Shown piece after piece: positions 6,727-48,059 of a stretch of DNA of 64,000 bases. How positions within the stretch are numbered: position 1 is the stretch's first letter; each line of letters begins with the position of its first letter. Source of the stretch: Dehalococcoidia bacterium (GTDB lineage Bacteria > Chloroflexota > Dehalococcoidia > GIF9 > AB-539-J10); NCBI GenBank assembly GCA_030615625.1, contig JAUWYX010000004.1, forward strand, positions 1 to 64,000, in the 5' to 3' direction. The notes under the pieces are model-generated. The model saw nothing but the letters and a program-made list of their open reading frames with translations. It ran no database searches and had not been told where the DNA came from. The translations under genes were made by a program, and so were the position numbers.

Positions 6727-6829
6727 ATAACTAATTTTAACATTATGCCCTTTCTATCGAAACATCCAGTGCTTTCCCCCTTCCTTCACAAAAAAGGGGC
6801 TGGTTAGCTGTGATTTATACAGTTAAGTA

Positions 6830-6877
6830 ACTTTTAGTTTTTGATGGTGGTGAAAAGTTCGTTAGCAAAAATGTTAG
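6830..6877 (+). repeat. array repeat R0, right end only
   Basis: Contains only the terminal part of the array repeat: CTTTTAGTTTTTGATGGTGG, then the GAAAAGTTCGTTAGC and ATGTTAG boundary motif. The tRNA-derived part is missing. It marks the outer (left) edge of the array. Confidence 0.8.
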
Positions 6878-8080: not shown

Positions 8081-8278
8081 TTGACAATTGATTTAGCTGG
8101 TAGGCCGTACAGGATTCGAACCTGTGACACCCTGATTAAAAGATACAAAAGGTATGTCCCTGAGCGTGGAAAGAAGTAATTCCTGATACCTTTCTATTGG
8201 CGATTTAGCTTCAGGTGGTGCTGTTTAGTACCATTTTGTTGTTTACGGTGGTGAAAAGTTCGTTAGCAAAAATGTTAG
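8081..8278 (+). repeat. array repeat R1 with tRNA-Lys 3' half
   Basis: Parts in order: TTGACAATTGATTTAGC; a tRNA-Lys 3' half (about 8097-8142, containing the T arm and the anticodon loop up to ATTAAAAG); then ATACAAAAGGTATGTC, a spacer, GATACCTTT, and the boundary motif at 8247-8278. AAAAGGTAT pairs with ATACCTTT as an inverted repeat. The tRNA similarity stops in the anticodon loop, so no functional tRNA is encoded. Confidence 0.85.
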
Positions 8279-8297
8279 CAAAAGAAGTATGGTGAAG

Positions 8298-8561
8298 CTA
8301 TTTTGATGGGCGTTTTCGTTTTTTACTAGGTTTTTCGGGAAAGTAATCGATGATTTTGCATAGAATGTCAATCATAATTTGTAAGTGCTCATCGTCAATC
8401 ATTAAGCGAACTTGCTCAACGGTGTAATCTGGGGTATTGGTTGTGAGGCTGACATAATTGATGCCATCTTCCCTATGGCTAGCAGTGATGCCATCTACAT
8501 ATAATGTTGGCAAGTCATTTCTTATAATTTCCTTGTCTTTAGAGTTCTTTCTATTTGACAT
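8298..8561 (-). CDS. small unknown protein, third gene of the MqsR/MqsA-like operon
   Basis: A protein of about 87 residues starting MSNRKNSKDKEI, with an N-terminal basic stretch, a beta-rich middle (TLYVDGITASHREDGINYV, then TPDYTVEQVRLMIDDEHLQ) and a basic lysine/arginine tail (KPSKKRKRPSK). I do not recognise the family. I prefer the ATG at 8561, which overlaps the antitoxin stop by 11 bases; an earlier in-frame ATG at 8585 is possible. The overlap indicates translational coupling with the antitoxin gene. Toxin-antitoxin systems with a third chaperone gene exist for MqsRA, but this protein is much shorter than SecB-like chaperones, so that role is not supported by size. Confidence 0.6.
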   Translation of the reverse strand: MSNRKNSKDKEIIRNDLPTLYVDGITASHREDGINYVSLTTNTPDYTVEQVRLMIDDEHLQIMIDILCKIIDYFPEKPSKKRKRPSK

Positions 8562-9099
8562 AAGTATGCTCCTCTTGACTAACAAATTTCTGCTGAAGGA
8601 ATGGGGTCGTAGGCTGTATTATCCTCGTAAGGAGTTTGTGGTACATTGGGATTCTAGCAATTGAAGCGTGCTTCACATATTTTGATGGATGGACGTAGAC
8701 CTGCGGTTGTAAGGGAAAACGGCCATCGCCGGTTCTCTTGAATCTAAGGACAGACTGTTTTAAGTACAAAGTGATTCCCACAAATTTGGTTTGATAAATA
8801 AAGCCGTGTTTAATTCGACGATGTTTATGCAATGCTTGGCGAGAGATACCTAGCATTGAAGCAACTTGGGTAGAGTTGAGAAAATTGGCAAGGGGAAATT
8901 GAATTAGTAGTTCATGAATAAGTCTGTTTCTCTCTGCCTCTATGGCACGAGACATCTCTTCTGTATAAAGAATGTCGTGGCAATCTGTACATTCATAGTA
9001 AGGAATGTTTGGAACCTCAATTTTACCTACGTAGAAGTCGAATATTTGAAGCGAATCAGATTTCACCTCGTAAACACCGCCACATTGGTAACAATTCAT
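8551..9099 (-). CDS. MqsA/YgiT-type antitoxin with unusual C-terminal half
   Basis: A 182-residue protein. The N-terminal zinc-binding domain has CYQC at residues 3-6 and CTDC at residues 37-40, as in MqsA/YgiT. A helix-turn-helix follows at about residues 74-98 (LNSTQVASMLGISRQALHKH) and looks like an excisionase/MerR-type helix-turn-helix rather than the Xre-type domain of E. coli MqsA. About 65 further residues extend the C terminus. It is expected to bind and neutralise the upstream MqsR-like toxin and repress the operon. The toxin gene ends 12 bases upstream, and toxin-first order is also typical of mqsRA. E. coli MqsA is about 131 residues, so the extension is notable. AGGAGG precedes the ATG. 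Confidence 0.75.
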   Translation of the reverse strand: MNCYQCGGVYEVKSDSLQIFDFYVGKIEVPNIPYYECTDCHDILYTEEMSRAIEAERNRLIHELLIQFPLANFLNSTQVASMLGISRQALHKHRRIKHGFIYQTKFVGITLYLKQSVLRFKRTGDGRFPLQPQVYVHPSKYVKHASIARIPMYHKLLTRIIQPTTPFLQQKFVSQEEHTYVK

Positions 9100-9111
9100 C
9101 AGAACCTCCTT

Positions 9112-9462
9112 TTAATAGTACGGTCTGTCTTCTTTAAAACTATTAATAATTAACTTTCCGTCTGCATCATCAATATACAAATGAATGTAAACATTTTCTC
9201 CAAAAAGTCGAGCTTTGTAAACATCAAAAACCCACCAAGCGTTTCTCTTAGAAGGGATTGACTTACAGAAATATGTTTCCTTTAATAGTTTAATGGCCTC
9301 AATTATTCTAGGTCTATTCCATCCAAAATCGGCAAGTGCAGAATCCTCAGCATTCTTTCTGATAAGAAATTCCCCACTATTTATTTTCTGTTTAACATCT
9401 GATAATTGATAAAAACTGCTTGGGCGATGAATATGCTTTCGTTTTTGCTTTCTTTTAGACAT
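9112..9462 (-). CDS. MqsR-like toxin (RelE-fold mRNA interferase)
   Basis: A 116-residue protein that aligns along its length with E. coli MqsR: a basic leader of 12 residues, then SSFYQLSDVKQKINSGEF, RIIEAIKLLKETYFCKS, WVFDVYKARLFGENVYIHL and LIINSFKED. Established catalytic or essential MqsR residues are K56, Q68, Y81 and K96. Here the equivalents appear to be K67, F79 (changed), Y92 and K110. It should cleave mRNA independently of or with the ribosome and cause growth arrest unless bound by the antitoxin. It is the first gene of a three-gene minus-strand operon filling cassette 2. The substitution at the Q68 position could alter activity. Confidence 0.8.
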   Translation of the reverse strand: MSKRKQKRKHIHRPSSFYQLSDVKQKINSGEFLIRKNAEDSALADFGWNRPRIIEAIKLLKETYFCKSIPSKRNAWWVFDVYKARLFGENVYIHLYIDDADGKLIINSFKEDRPYY

Positions 9463-9593
9463 CTTAAGATAGCATTAAAGTTGACGCATGTCAACCCAGA
9501 TGGTTGTTCACTAATATTAATTTTAACATATTGAAAAAAGCCCCAAAAATTATTTAATAGTAACTAAAATAATAAAAGAGACTTGATTGCGAG

Positions 9594-9826
9594 TATTAAT
9601 GCAATGAATAAATTAGTATTTTTGACTATTGACAATTGATTTAGCTGGTAGGCCGTACGGGATTCGAACCTGTGACACCCTGATTAAAAGATACAAAAGG
9701 TATGTCCCTGAGCGTGAAAAGAGGTAATTCCTGATACCTTTTTATTGGCGATTTAGCTTCGATTTGTACCACTAGGTCACTCTTGGTTTTTCATGGTGGT
9801 GAAAAGTTCGTTAGCAAAAATGTTAG
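9594..9826 (+). repeat. array repeat R2, the longest copy
   Basis: Begins with TATTAATGCAATGAATAAAT, which also occurs (with small changes) next to the complete tRNA-Lys at 12841. It continues through TTGACAATTGATTTAGC, the tRNA-Lys 3' half (about 9646-9690), the 9-bp inverted repeat AAAAGGTAT (9695-9703) / ATACCTTTT (9734-9742), TGTACCACTAGGTCACTC, and the boundary motif at 9795-9826. Two GTTAGCA direct repeats lie within the boundary motif. Confidence 0.88.
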
Positions 9827-9839
9827 CAGAACAACGGTG

Positions 9840-11078: not shown

Positions 11079-11153
11079 ATCTAAACTCAGTGTAAATGCC
11101 TATATTCTTATTAAGTTCATTATAGCACTGCTAACTTGGACAAGCCAAAACGA

Positions 11154-11293
11154 AAAGATACAAAAGGTATGTCGCTGAGCGTGAAAAGAGGTAATTCATG
11201 ATACCTTTTTATTTGCGATTTAGCGTTGACTTGTACCGCTAGGTCACTCTTAGTTTTTCGTGGTGGTGGAAAGTTCGTTAGCAAAAATGTTAG
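11154..11293 (+). repeat. array repeat R3, lacking most of the tRNA part
   Basis: Starts at AAAAGATACAAAAGGTATG, exactly where R1 and R2 leave the tRNA sequence (only AAAAG remains). It continues through GATACCTTTTTATTTGCG, TGTACCGCTAGGTCACTC and the boundary motif at 11262-11293. The tRNA-derived half seems to have been deleted or never acquired. Confidence 0.82.
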
Positions 11294-11306
11294 CAGAAAA
11301 TATCAT

Positions 11307-12840: not shown

Positions 12841-12893
12841 TATTAATGCAATGATTAAAATTGGTATTTTTGACTATTGAAAATTGATTTAGC
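12841..12893 (+). repeat. array repeat R4 flank next to tRNA-Lys
   Basis: The segment TATTAATGCAATGATTAAAA to AAATTGATTTAGC matches the same part of R2 (9594-9645) with a few substitutions and leads straight into the 3' end of the complete tRNA-Lys. This ties the intact tRNA to the array repeats. Confidence 0.8.
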
Positions 12894-12969
12894 TGGTAGG
12901 CCGTACAGTGTTCGAACCTGCGACACCCTGATTAAAAGTCAGGTGCTCTACCAACTGAGCTAACGGCCC
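12894..12969 (-). tRNA. tRNA-Lys (anticodon TTT), array-side copy with a T-arm mismatch
   Basis: The acceptor stem GGGCCGT/ACGGCCT, anticodon stem CCTGA/TCAGG with loop CTTTTAA, and encoded CCA are intact. The T stem reads GCAGG/ACTGT, so the normally invariant G53-C61 pair is G-A. The second tRNA-Lys at 47984-48059 has the expected C. The altered 3' part may have come from an integrated element. It may be poorly functional. Confidence 0.85.
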
Positions 12970-14802: not shown

Positions 14803-15699
14803 ATGCCGCCAAGAAAAAATATGTTCGAACATAAATATGCTGATGTCAATAACATACGCCTCCACTATGTAACGGCGGGCAAGGGGAAATTGATAATGTT
14901 TCTCCACGGTTTTCCTGAGTTCTGGTACGAGTGGAAGAATCAACTTGCTGAATTCGGACGAGATTACCAGGCAGTGGCTCCGGATATGCGCGGCTATAAT
15001 CTTTCATCAAAACCTGTCGATGTAGAGCAATATCGAATGAAATATCTCATCGGGGATATTCGTGCTCTTGCCGAGCACCTTGGGTATAAGAAGTTTATCC
15101 TCGTGGCTCATGATTGGGGTGGTGCGGTAGCCTTGCCTTTCGCTATACGTCATCCTGATTATCTGGAGAAGCTCATAATAATAAATGCCCCACATCCTGT
15201 TACCATTATACGTGAGCTCCGCGATAATCCGGAGCAGCGGAAAGCCAGCCAGTATATTCTCGTACATCGTACCCCTAAGGCTGAAGAGATACTGTCTAGA
15301 AACAACTATGCTTTGCTTGCTAGTAACCTGCTGGAGGATGGGCTAAAACAGGGCTACTTCACGGAAGAAGATAAGAAAGCGTATATCGAAGCCTGGTCAC
15401 AGCCCGGTGCGCTGACCGGCGGTTTAAATTATTATCGAGCCACTCATCTCGGCTCTTTTACAGGTGAAAGCGACGATATCTTGTCGGCAGACCCTTCTTT
15501 GTTTATAGTTAAGGTACCGACGCTGGTAGTCTGGGGTGAGAAAGATAAGTACCTGCTTACGGGAAATCTGGAAGGTCTGGAAAAGTACGTACCAAACCTG
15601 ACCATCAAGCGCATTCCCGATGGCTCGCACTGGGTCATTCATGAAAAGCCGGGGCTGGTTAATTCCTATATCAGAGAATTCATCACTGCCAAGGCCTGA
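14803..15699 (+). CDS. alpha/beta hydrolase, epoxide-hydrolase-like
   Basis: A 298-residue hydrolase of the epoxide hydrolase/haloalkane dehalogenase branch. The oxyanion motif HGFPEFWYEW lies near residues 45-54. The nucleophile elbow VAHDWGGAVAL gives the aspartate nucleophile of this branch (residue about 105). A late acid lies near VVWGEKDKYL and the catalytic histidine in IPDGSHWVIHEKP. The aspartate nucleophile separates it from serine esterases. It would open epoxides or remove halide with water, but the substrate cannot be told from sequence. AAGGAGG is visible before the ATG. It overlaps the end of the convergent HTH gene by 17 bases. Confidence 0.85.
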   Translation: MPPRKNMFEHKYADVNNIRLHYVTAGKGKLIMFLHGFPEFWYEWKNQLAEFGRDYQAVAPDMRGYNLSSKPVDVEQYRMKYLIGDIRALAEHLGYKKFILVAHDWGGAVALPFAIRHPDYLEKLIIINAPHPVTIIRELRDNPEQRKASQYILVHRTPKAEEILSRNNYALLASNLLEDGLKQGYFTEEDKKAYIEAWSQPGALTGGLNYYRATHLGSFTGESDDILSADPSLFIVKVPTLVVWGEKDKYLLTGNLEGLEKYVPNLTIKRIPDGSHWVIHEKPGLVNSYIREFITAKA

Positions 15700-16030
15700 A
15701 TAGCCTTTGCCACCATGTTTGCTTAGTGGTCTGCTTAGGGGCTTCCAGAAGCAATAATCGTTCCTGAAGGGATTCTGCTTTAGCTTTCCAATAGCCGACT
15801 TCCTGGGATAATTGCTCTATTCTATTGACAAGGGGTTGGGTTGATAGGGTATTATCTGATAATGGCTTAGTGAGCAGGGGTAGTTCGTCGATAATGTATG
15901 ACCCCCCGAACTTGGAAGGGACTAGCCTGGCCTTGAGCTTGCCAGACTTGATATACCGACGGATGGTAACTATTGAGACCCCTAAAGCCTCGGCAGCCTC
16001 TCTTAATGTATAGCCATCCATTAGGAACAT
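15683..16030 (-). CDS. HTH protein with coiled-coil tail, possible excisionase/regulator
   Basis: A 115-residue protein. Residues 4-55 form an HTH_17/MerR-like DNA-binding domain (YTLREAAEALGVSIVTIRRY, then IKSGKLKARLV), as in excisionases and small regulators. A coiled-coil region follows (about 65-100, QLSQEVGYWKAKAESLQERL) and the tail WWQRLFRPW is basic and aromatic. AAGGTG precedes the ATG. The gene is divergent from the tyrosine recombinase 267 bases away, with tRNA-derived repeats between them, which suggests control of or assistance to recombination. A general regulator is equally possible. Confidence 0.65.
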   Translation of the reverse strand: MFLMDGYTLREAAEALGVSIVTIRRYIKSGKLKARLVPSKFGGSYIIDELPLLTKPLSDNTLSTQPLVNRIEQLSQEVGYWKAKAESLQERLLLLEAPKQTTKQTWWQRLFRPWQ

Positions 16031-16121: not shown

Positions 16122-16238
16122 GCCGTACAGGATTCGAACCTGTGACACCCTGATAAAAAGTTCGGGAAGAAAAAAATAGATACAAAAGCAGATGAAATGA
16201 GCCATTTTGACACCCTGATTAGGGCTGACACCCTGATT
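16122..16238 (+). repeat. tRNA-Lys-derived repeat cluster (R6) beside the recombinase
   Basis: A tRNA-Lys 3' fragment (GCCGTACAGGATTCGAACCT onward, 16122-16155) is followed by two more copies of its core TGACACCCTGAT at 16208-16219 and 16226-16237; the first copy is at 16143-16154. Remnants AGTTCG and ATACAAAAG of the array repeat also occur. It may be an attachment region or recombinase binding region. Confidence 0.65.
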
Positions 16239-16297
16239 TTTTCTCAGAGGCCGGGTCTGAAACCGACAAATAATGATAGAGGAGGTTAAGATCCAGC

Positions 16298-17281
16298 ATG
16301 TCAACTCATATGCACAACCAGGAGAAGGCAAACACCTTATCTGAACTCATAGACTACTACGAAGTTTGCAACAGAGCTGAAGGCAAAAGCTACAGAACAA
16401 TAGGCTGGTATTCTGCAAACCTAAAGCGTTTTCGTAGCTACCTGAAAGGCAGGCACCTCTCAGAATCATTAGATACCATCGACAAAAAAGTGCTCCGCGA
16501 ATATGTACTCTATCTGCTCAAAAGGAATAGATTCGAGAATCACCCTTACGTCCCACTCAGGACAGAGCCATTGTCGGCCGCGACGGTCCACGGTCATGTT
16601 AGAACCCTGCGGGCGTTCTTCAGTTGGCTTGTAGCTGAAGGCTTGACTGAAGAGAATATTGCCAAGGATTTGAAACCACCCAAGCTGGTCAAGAAGGCGG
16701 TATCTACATTATCGGACGAGGAAATAATCGCCATAGTCCACACACTGAACCCTAACAATCATTGTGAGGCGAGGAATCTGACAATCTTCATGCTTCTGCT
16801 TGATACCGGGCTCAGGATAGGGGAACTTGTTAGCCTTAAGATGCAAGATATTCACATCAACGAGGCATTCGTAAAGGTAATGGGCAAGGGCAAAAAGGAG
16901 CGAATCGTGCCTATCGGAAACAACGCACAGAAGGCATTACAGCGGTATCTCTTCCGTTACAGGACCAGACCCGCGCATGCGGGGATTGAAAATGTTTTTC
17001 TGTCAGTACATGGCACTCCCTTAACTGAGAACAACATGCGACTGATGTTTGCCCGGTTAGGGCAGAGATCGGGAGTCCATCGACTTCATGCCCACCTTTG
17101 CCGGCATACTTTTGCTACAAGGTTCCTAACTAATGGTGGTGATGTCTTCACCCTGCAGCGAATACTTGGGCACTCCACATTGGAGATGGTAAGACACTAT
17201 GTGAATTTGGCATCAAACGACGTTATTATCAAGCATCAGAGGTGTTCGCCGTTGGACCGCTTGAATCTACATAGAGCCTAG
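16298..17281 (+). CDS. tyrosine recombinase/integrase (XerC/D-like)
   Basis: A 327-residue recombinase with a core-binding SAM-like domain (about 12-120) and catalytic domain (about 135-310). The catalytic set is complete: R173 (TGLRIGELVSL), a lysine near 199-200 (GKGKKER), H266-x-x-R269 (HAHLCRHTFATRF), H292 (LGHSTLEMV) and the nucleophile Y301 (RHYV). It should cut and rejoin DNA at short core sites through a 3'-phosphotyrosine link. GAGGAGG is upstream of the ATG. It lies 3.3 kb to the right of the tRNA-Lys array, with three copies of the tRNA-derived core just upstream, so it is a candidate to act on the array in trans. No phage or plasmid structural genes accompany it. Confidence 0.9.
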   Translation: MSTHMHNQEKANTLSELIDYYEVCNRAEGKSYRTIGWYSANLKRFRSYLKGRHLSESLDTIDKKVLREYVLYLLKRNRFENHPYVPLRTEPLSAATVHGHVRTLRAFFSWLVAEGLTEENIAKDLKPPKLVKKAVSTLSDEEIIAIVHTLNPNNHCEARNLTIFMLLLDTGLRIGELVSLKMQDIHINEAFVKVMGKGKKERIVPIGNNAQKALQRYLFRYRTRPAHAGIENVFLSVHGTPLTENNMRLMFARLGQRSGVHRLHAHLCRHTFATRFLTNGGDVFTLQRILGHSTLEMVRHYVNLASNDVIIKHQRCSPLDRLNLHRA

Positions 17282-47983: not shown

Positions 47984-48059
47984 TGGTAGGCCGTACAGGA
48001 TTCGAACCTGCGACACCCTGATTAAAAGTCAGGTGCTCTACCAACTGAGCTAACGGCCC
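47984..48059 (-). tRNA. tRNA-Lys (anticodon TTT), intact copy
   Basis: The same sequence as the tRNA at 12894-12969 except two bases in the T arm: here GCAGG/CCTGT closes normally with G53-C61 and loop TTCGAAT. Acceptor, anticodon loop CTTTTAA and encoded CCA are intact. It has its own terminator. This is likely the working tRNA-Lys of the window. Confidence 0.95.

Follow-up and report, generated by a model that had tools for sequence, protein, structure and literature searches.

CIMEs are elements flanked by attL and attR that lack integration genes and accrete in tandem with ICEs and IMEs at a tRNA gene (PMC5704250). In Dehalococcoides, the ssrA islands are arranged in tandem at a single RNA gene, 16 of them with and 15 without an integration module, and their integrase gene overlaps the att site (PMC3146451). 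The mycobacteriophages that integrate at tRNA-Lys-TTT (attB-4) use lambda-like arm-binding integrases and pairs of arm sites placed around the core; this core lies at the anticodon, and secondary sites keep only 5'-CTT (PMC10865867). A crossover in the anticodon loop is also one of the Islander sub-sites (PMC4383910). The additive flexible genomic islands of Ca. Methylopumilus display recurring tRNA-Lys end repeats with variable genes between them; this repeat consists of 20 bp of tRNA only, and neither an arm-site anatomy nor a cognate integrase is described for it (PMC10872708). Tycheposons and phage satellites are small tRNA-targeted elements that combine a tyrosine recombinase with cargo (in part PMC10872708).

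The array of gene cassettes reported here was found in a window of 64,000 nucleotides, which corresponds to positions 1-64000 of contig C3 in the draft genome of a Dehalococcoidia bacterium (G000; 1.62 Mb, 97% complete, 19 contigs). Like CIMEs, its cassettes are att-flanked, devoid of integration genes and stacked at a tRNA gene; unlike CIMEs, they measure 1.4-1.8 kb, consist of a single operon each and have a left-end block in common, and an HUH Rep, but no conjugation gene, was seen in their complete relatives. The ssrA islands belong to the same class of bacteria and share the tandem arrangement at an RNA gene as well as the overlap between integrase gene and att site. They are however larger, carry rdhA cargo and involve the serine recombinase DsiB and the tmRNA gene, whereas the target is here tRNA-Lys, the linked enzyme a tyrosine integrase and the cargo defence-like, so that the array was not placed among them. 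An arm-binding lambda-like integrase, paired arm-type sites and a core at the anticodon recall the attB-4 mycobacteriophages, but these are whole phages with their own integrase and form no cassette arrays. Repeated tRNA-Lys ends and a variable gene content are found in the Ca. Methylopumilus islands too, and the window cassettes differ from tycheposons and phage satellites by the absence of a recombinase or replication gene, with no sign of packaging or of a helper. Anticodon-loop crossovers, CIME accretion, arm-site pairs, integrase-less tandem islands and repeated tRNA-Lys ends are already known; what is new is their combination in defence cassettes of very small size, which share a left end, possess a complete lambda-type arm and can be linked to one specific integrase family.

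With a probability of about three in four, the repeats of this array would be right attachment sites of a family of elements targeting tRNA-Lys, and the array a CIME-like pile-up of cassettes probably mobilised in trans. The array and its tRNA-Lys are read on the minus strand and are described in that direction (Table 1). Three direct repeats, R1 (8081-8286), R2 (9629-9834) and R3 (11096-11301), are accompanied by a partial copy, R0 (6804-6877). Each R is read as a series of putative P-arm sites (two GCTAAC words with a period of 12), an arm of about 100 nt, a core CTTTT(AA) and a displaced tRNA 3' half. On the plus strand, the two words read GTTAGCA and start 12 bases apart, at 8262/8274 in R1, 9810/9822 in R2 and 11277/11289 in R3; a 22-mer containing both is present in four copies in the 64 kb, one of them with a mismatch, against none in 100 shuffles. 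The arms of R1, R2 and R3 are 81-93% identical in pairs, R1 reaching 85% with R2 and 81% with R3, and R2 and R3 sharing 93%. R0 is an old copy, reduced to the distal half of the arm, in which the second word reads GTTAGTA, and it occupies the same position in G042, G039, G037, G028 and G032.

Table 1. Features of the cassette array and of related loci in the 64,000-nucleotide window
Feature	Position	Strand	Evidence
R0: arm positions 3-76 only, no core	6804..6877	-	adjoins GTPase gene
Cassette D: SLFN_AlbA_2 protein, 356 aa	6942..8012	+	Pfam 1.8e-13; PADLOC PDC-S50 2.3e-13
R1 core and displaced tRNA-Lys 3' half	8098..8142	-	44/45 from CTTTT onward
R1 right arm, subtype 2, 138 nt	8143..8280	-	92% to arms in G039 and G038
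R1 GTTAGCA direct-repeat pair, putative P arm-type sites, period 12	8262..8280	+	most conserved arm segment
Cassette C: MqsR-type toxin 9112-9462, partner 8551-9099, small ORF	8298..9462	-	MqsR 1.3e-10 (Pfam)
Left-end block GCTAAATCAATTGTCAATAGTCAAAAATAC of MqsRA cassette	9610..9645	-	common to six left ends
R2 core and tRNA-Lys 3' half	9646..9690	-	43/45 vs 4/31
R2 right arm, subtype 1, 138 nt	9691..9828	-	92%/91% to arms of integrase-bearing elements, G039/G041
R2 GTTAGCA pair	9810..9828	+	word and 22-mer counts
Cassette B: Hsp70 C-terminal region and pPIWI-associated nuclease domain, 412 aa	9840..11078	-	Pfam 2e-28, 1.3e-17; PADLOC Aga_Nuclease 2e-11
R3 right arm ending in CTTTT, without tRNA half	11153..11295	-	match stops at CTTTT
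R3 GTTAGCA pair	11277..11295	+	word positions
Cassette A: GHKL (HATPase_c_3) protein, 491 aa	11307..12782	-	Pfam 1e-8
Left-end block of ATPase cassette, directly after tRNA-Lys	12858..12893	-	sequence comparison
tRNA-Lys(UUU) at array, second copy, one T-stem mismatch	12894..12969	-	ARAGORN; 61.7 bits
Other tRNA-Lys 3' fragment beside family-A recombinase	16122..16160	-	different flank
Family-A tyrosine recombinase, 327 aa	16298..17281	+	Pfam, homologue and att-signature comparison
Native tRNA-Lys(UUU)	47984..48059	-	74.4 bits; 340 nt upstream syntenic with four relatives

A preliminary description of this DNA had placed the end of the tRNA similarity exactly at CTTTT in the anticodon loop of R1 and R2, with R3 resuming at the same base, and had seen there a crossover point typical of tyrosine recombinases. 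Comparison with tRNA-Lys(UUU) on the minus strand bears out this placement. From the C of CTTTT to the CCA end, R1 matches the tRNA at 44/45 bases, and R2 matches it from the same C at 43/45, against 5/31 and 4/31 respectively on the 5' side. In R3, the arm is kept up to CTTTT; these five bases are common with the tRNA, the next 45 match at 13 positions, which is the chance level, and the DNA beyond is unrelated. BLAST searches across the order (84 genomes) detected the arm in 14, which belong with very few exceptions to a single genus, that of the source, where most genomes are carriers; such a recurrence is not due to chance. In a set of 15 full-length arm copies from nine genomes, 14 end at the same base and the remaining one is truncated, so that the scattered breakpoints named beforehand as evidence to the contrary were not seen. 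Beyond these 14 arms lie eight tRNA-Lys(UUU)-type halves, two tRNA-Lys(CUU) halves and four stretches of unrelated DNA (R3 and copies in G039, G031 and G034); in both CUU cases the arm core reads CTCTT and matches its target. The displaced 3' fragment, the sharp break in the anticodon loop and the use of the same site by tyrosine-integrase elements are features of an attR-type site in a tRNA gene. They argue for a tyrosine-recombinase attachment site in which the core CTTTT(AA) would correspond to the anticodon loop of tRNA-Lys and to the crossover. If the repeat were mainly regulatory, each gene bringing along its operator, terminator or promoter, the joining of arms to tRNA halves at a single base would be left unexplained. 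Coreless copies of arm positions 1-88 do precede cargo promoters (G037, G024) and adjoin the GTPase gene, and R1 contains one terminator-like hairpin; promoter and terminator matches in the region nevertheless occur at the shuffled rate, and a mainly regulatory role is considered very unlikely.

Beyond the junction, peaks of conservation had been predicted at the GTTAGCA words, taken as possible arm-type sites, and at a 9-bp inverted repeat. Only the first of these predictions was verified among the 15 copies. Far from being uniform, conservation is highest at the GCTAAC pair (mean IC of 1.85, compared with 1.49 for the whole arm; P 5e-5 relative to random columns), the 15 columns that follow the pair rank next (P 0.013) and the middle of the arm is lowest. 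No other part of the repeat is as conserved as this pair, which also recurs beside the tRNA in integrase-bearing elements; its assignment as arm-type sites is thus supported. The inverted repeat is present as described in R2 (AAAAGGTAT at 9695-9703 and ATACCTTTT at 9734-9742, with a spacer of 30) and is also found in R3 (11162-11170/11201-11209); it is imperfect in R1 (ATACCTTTC at 8186-8194). Its conservation is average, without excess over the rest of the arm, and its pairing (83.7%) equals that of shuffled partners (82.6%) with no covariation, so that it was not retained as a functional element. A second dyad, in arm subtype 2, failed as well. The two subtypes separate in a tree of the arms with a support of 94/94, just below the threshold of the tool.

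The same arm is found in complete elements. In G041 (contig C30) and G039 (contig C25), a tRNA-Lys(CUU) is followed by the gene of a 423-aa integrase, cargo, the arm and a CUU tRNA half. This integrase contains the domains Arm-DNA-bind_4, SAM_3 and Phage_integrase, and its open frame runs into the tRNA-Lys gene and stops there. About 20 nt 3' of the tRNA, complete elements carry a GCTAAC pair with a period of 11, the counterpart of the period-12 pair of the arm; direct-repeat words are thus present on both sides of the core, as in a lambda-type attP, and the pair near the tRNA would provide the P'-arm sites. Among 24 loci encoding integrases of this kind (family B), located at many different tRNAs, 19 show a period-11 6-mer direct repeat beside the tRNA, against a shuffled mean of 0.9 and a maximum of 5. 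The word itself varies among loci (GCTAAC, GCCGAC, GCTAAT, GACAAC, GCAAAC), from which we infer that it follows its integrase. An 11-nt arm-word rule valid across many integrases offers a practical route from an orphan attachment site to the enzyme that goes with it. Because arm and words are shared, the cognate enzyme of the R sites is most likely this lambda/Tn916-type integrase, whose N-terminal domain is predicted from Arm-DNA-bind_4 to bind the words. The AlphaFold model of the protein is good over about the first 50 residues only, and the resemblance of its N-terminal part to lambda Int arm-binding structures is weak (Z about 4-4.5, tied with unrelated rows). Neither a family-B integrase nor a Rep homologue was found in G000, a 97%-complete draft in 19 contigs with six integrase-domain genes, none of family B, and no relative of the arm or of the 423-aa integrase was found in IMG/VR.

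The preliminary description had turned to another enzyme, the tyrosine recombinase encoded at 16298-17281, which lies near the array with a tRNA-Lys fragment alongside. This assignment did not hold up: the protein belongs to a different family (A), with 24% identity over the catalytic part, Pfam found no arm-binding domain in it, and close homologues are missing from 19 genomes of the genus although many of these carry the arm. At the threshold used, its relatives within family A show 34-39% identity only. Several of them are located downstream of a full tRNA, and between tRNA and gene they carry inverted anticodon-stem copies, not GTTAGCA pairs; two inverted copies of the tRNA-Lys anticodon stem (TGACACCCTGATT) likewise lie just upstream of the window gene (16122-16297). 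The R sites are probably served by another enzyme, and an action of this recombinase on them is judged most unlikely. Similar inverted copies are seen with family-A relatives for tRNA-Pro and tRNA-Val. At loci L071-L079 (G036, G041), inverted copies (AATCAGGGTGTCA / TGACACCCTGATT) come after many tRNA-Lys 3' fragments, and a further family of elements apparently uses this tRNA there. A 115-aa HTH_17 gene at 15683-16030 has relatives (79-91% identity) in G041, G031, G042, G024 and G034, and in several genomes such genes are neighbours of a tRNA-Lys fragment or of the R0 arm.

The genes carried by the window cassettes are likely anti-virus or defence-like. In cassette C, the partner of the toxin has no Pfam match and is zinc-ribbon or HTH-like by position and CxxC motifs only. 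None of the cassettes contains an integrase, LuxR-type regulator, HUH Rep or excisionase-like gene, whereas the complete relatives have in common a module made of a LuxR-type regulator, an HUH Rep (REP_ORF2-G2P), an HTH_17 excisionase-like protein and the integrase. Cargo at related loci comprises SIR2, a STAND NTPase, a reverse transcriptase, PHP-Schlafen, a dGTPase and AAA proteins, and the same locus elsewhere holds other cargo (SIR2, dGTPase). Cassettes A and C are flanked by att sites and contain cargo only, as CIMEs do; cassette B has no left tRNA half and cassette D ends in the truncated R0. The layout of a cassette is a tRNA half, a conserved left-end block, one or more defence-like genes and the arm, the last stop codon being 11-17 nt from the arm in cassettes A to C. 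Short cassettes, a stop codon this close to the site and a repeated site between genes are reminiscent of an integron in which R would represent attC sites. However, the arm consensus fold is weak (-1.71 kcal/mol), no integron integrase was seen (the six integrase-domain genes were not individually typed as IntI), the sites carry a tRNA half and lambda-type arm words, and the cassettes have their own left-end block; the array was not classified as an integron, a reading that we regard as extremely improbable.

A block of about 30 nt placed directly after the tRNA half is common to six integrase-less left ends from four genomes, with differing cargo; cassette D keeps its first 19 nt only. By its position this block suggests a sigma-70 promoter, and a scan for such promoters gave matches at the shuffled rate. 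At their left ends, the window cassettes have the sequence GCTAAATCAATTGTCAATAGTC and no GCTAAC pair, so that a lambda-type reaction would be incomplete there; this feature and the absence of a tRNA half in R3 and in cassette B fit poorly with a trans-mobilised pile-up, against which the lack of a family-B integrase or Rep among the genes found in the draft genome also counts. Alternatively, complete elements may have been inserted serially at tRNA-Lys and each may later have lost its integrase module in place, with no mobilisation in trans. CIMEs have been described as arising in this way (PMC5704250), the integrase of the G024 element is internally deleted, and the G038 element has a LuxR-type gene without integrase. 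Independent deletions would not yield one junction, however, and the shared left-end block therefore counts against such decay, which is held to be rather unlikely. The cassettes could also be shuffled without integrase by homologous recombination, the arm, tRNA half and left-end block (about 200 nt) serving as homology. The identity of the arms within the genome is in line with this, and minimal cargo-less forms in G041, G034 and G031, in which the arm begins about 18 nt after the tRNA half, resemble recombination between GCTAAC-bearing ends; they suggest that cargo can be lost between two such ends. Homologous recombination leaves unexplained the exact CTTTT junctions with unrelated DNA, in R3 as in G039, G031 and G034, and is considered unlikely. 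A near-empty site was observed in G032, with tRNA-Lys, 20 nt, an R0-type arm and the GTPase.

According to the preferred reading, that of attachment sites in a trans-mobilised pile-up, lambda-type integration would occur at the anticodon loop, every insertion pushing the older cassettes away from the tRNA and leaving behind one arm and one tRNA half. Cassettes would thereby be stacked downstream of the tRNA-Lys copy like cis-mobilisable elements. The integrase would probably act in trans, provided by a newly arriving complete element with genes for the integrase, an Xis-like HTH protein, an HUH Rep and a LuxR-type regulator. The R1 subtype is also present in G039, G041 and G038, R1 being closest to arms in G039 and G038 (92%), and R2 is closest to R3 (93%) and to the integrase-bearing elements in G039 and G041 (92%, 91%), which points to a shared cassette pool and not to local duplication. 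The exact site, the candidate enzyme and the natural variants together give a handle on the packaging of single defence genes and their stacking at a tRNA gene in uncultured Dehalococcoidia.

A more speculative proposal, possible but tentative, is that promoter-bearing integrase-less defence cassettes form a propagating family of their own, mobilised in trans into tRNA-Lys by a small Rep-encoding integrative element, and that the arm encodes an alternative C-terminus of the integrase (KRYKRYVPEREKK-stop). On the reverse strand, the core-proximal 42 nt of the arm contain a 13-codon open frame followed by a stop codon, which falls at the same place in 15/15 arms; this frame continues the integrase reading into the core, and KRYKRYVPEREKK-stop, with variants, is found in 14/15 arms. 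The excess of synonymous changes in the frame is not significant (12/33 vs 25% expected, P 0.10, each variant counted once). If the proposal is true, the cassette family would be a tRNA-based counterpart of integron cassettes, and the integrase tail would switch between the circular and the integrated state.

Three further observations concern the target and the spread of the repeat. The array is located at a second, slightly defective tRNA-Lys, the upstream DNA of which is unrelated to the native locus, and the native copy carries no array, a situation that sits awkwardly with the preferred reading. At L014 8455-8562 (G000 C3:135450-135560), a nitroreductase gene is joined at its stop codon to a remnant arm with its left-end block, the core being GATTAAAAG; the same junction in G042, G031, G024 and G034 indicates an old fixed insertion. 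Finally, at L052 (11359-11432), the anticodon of the tRNA-Lys(CUU) at the integration site has become CUG, and ARAGORN takes the gene for tRNA-Gln.
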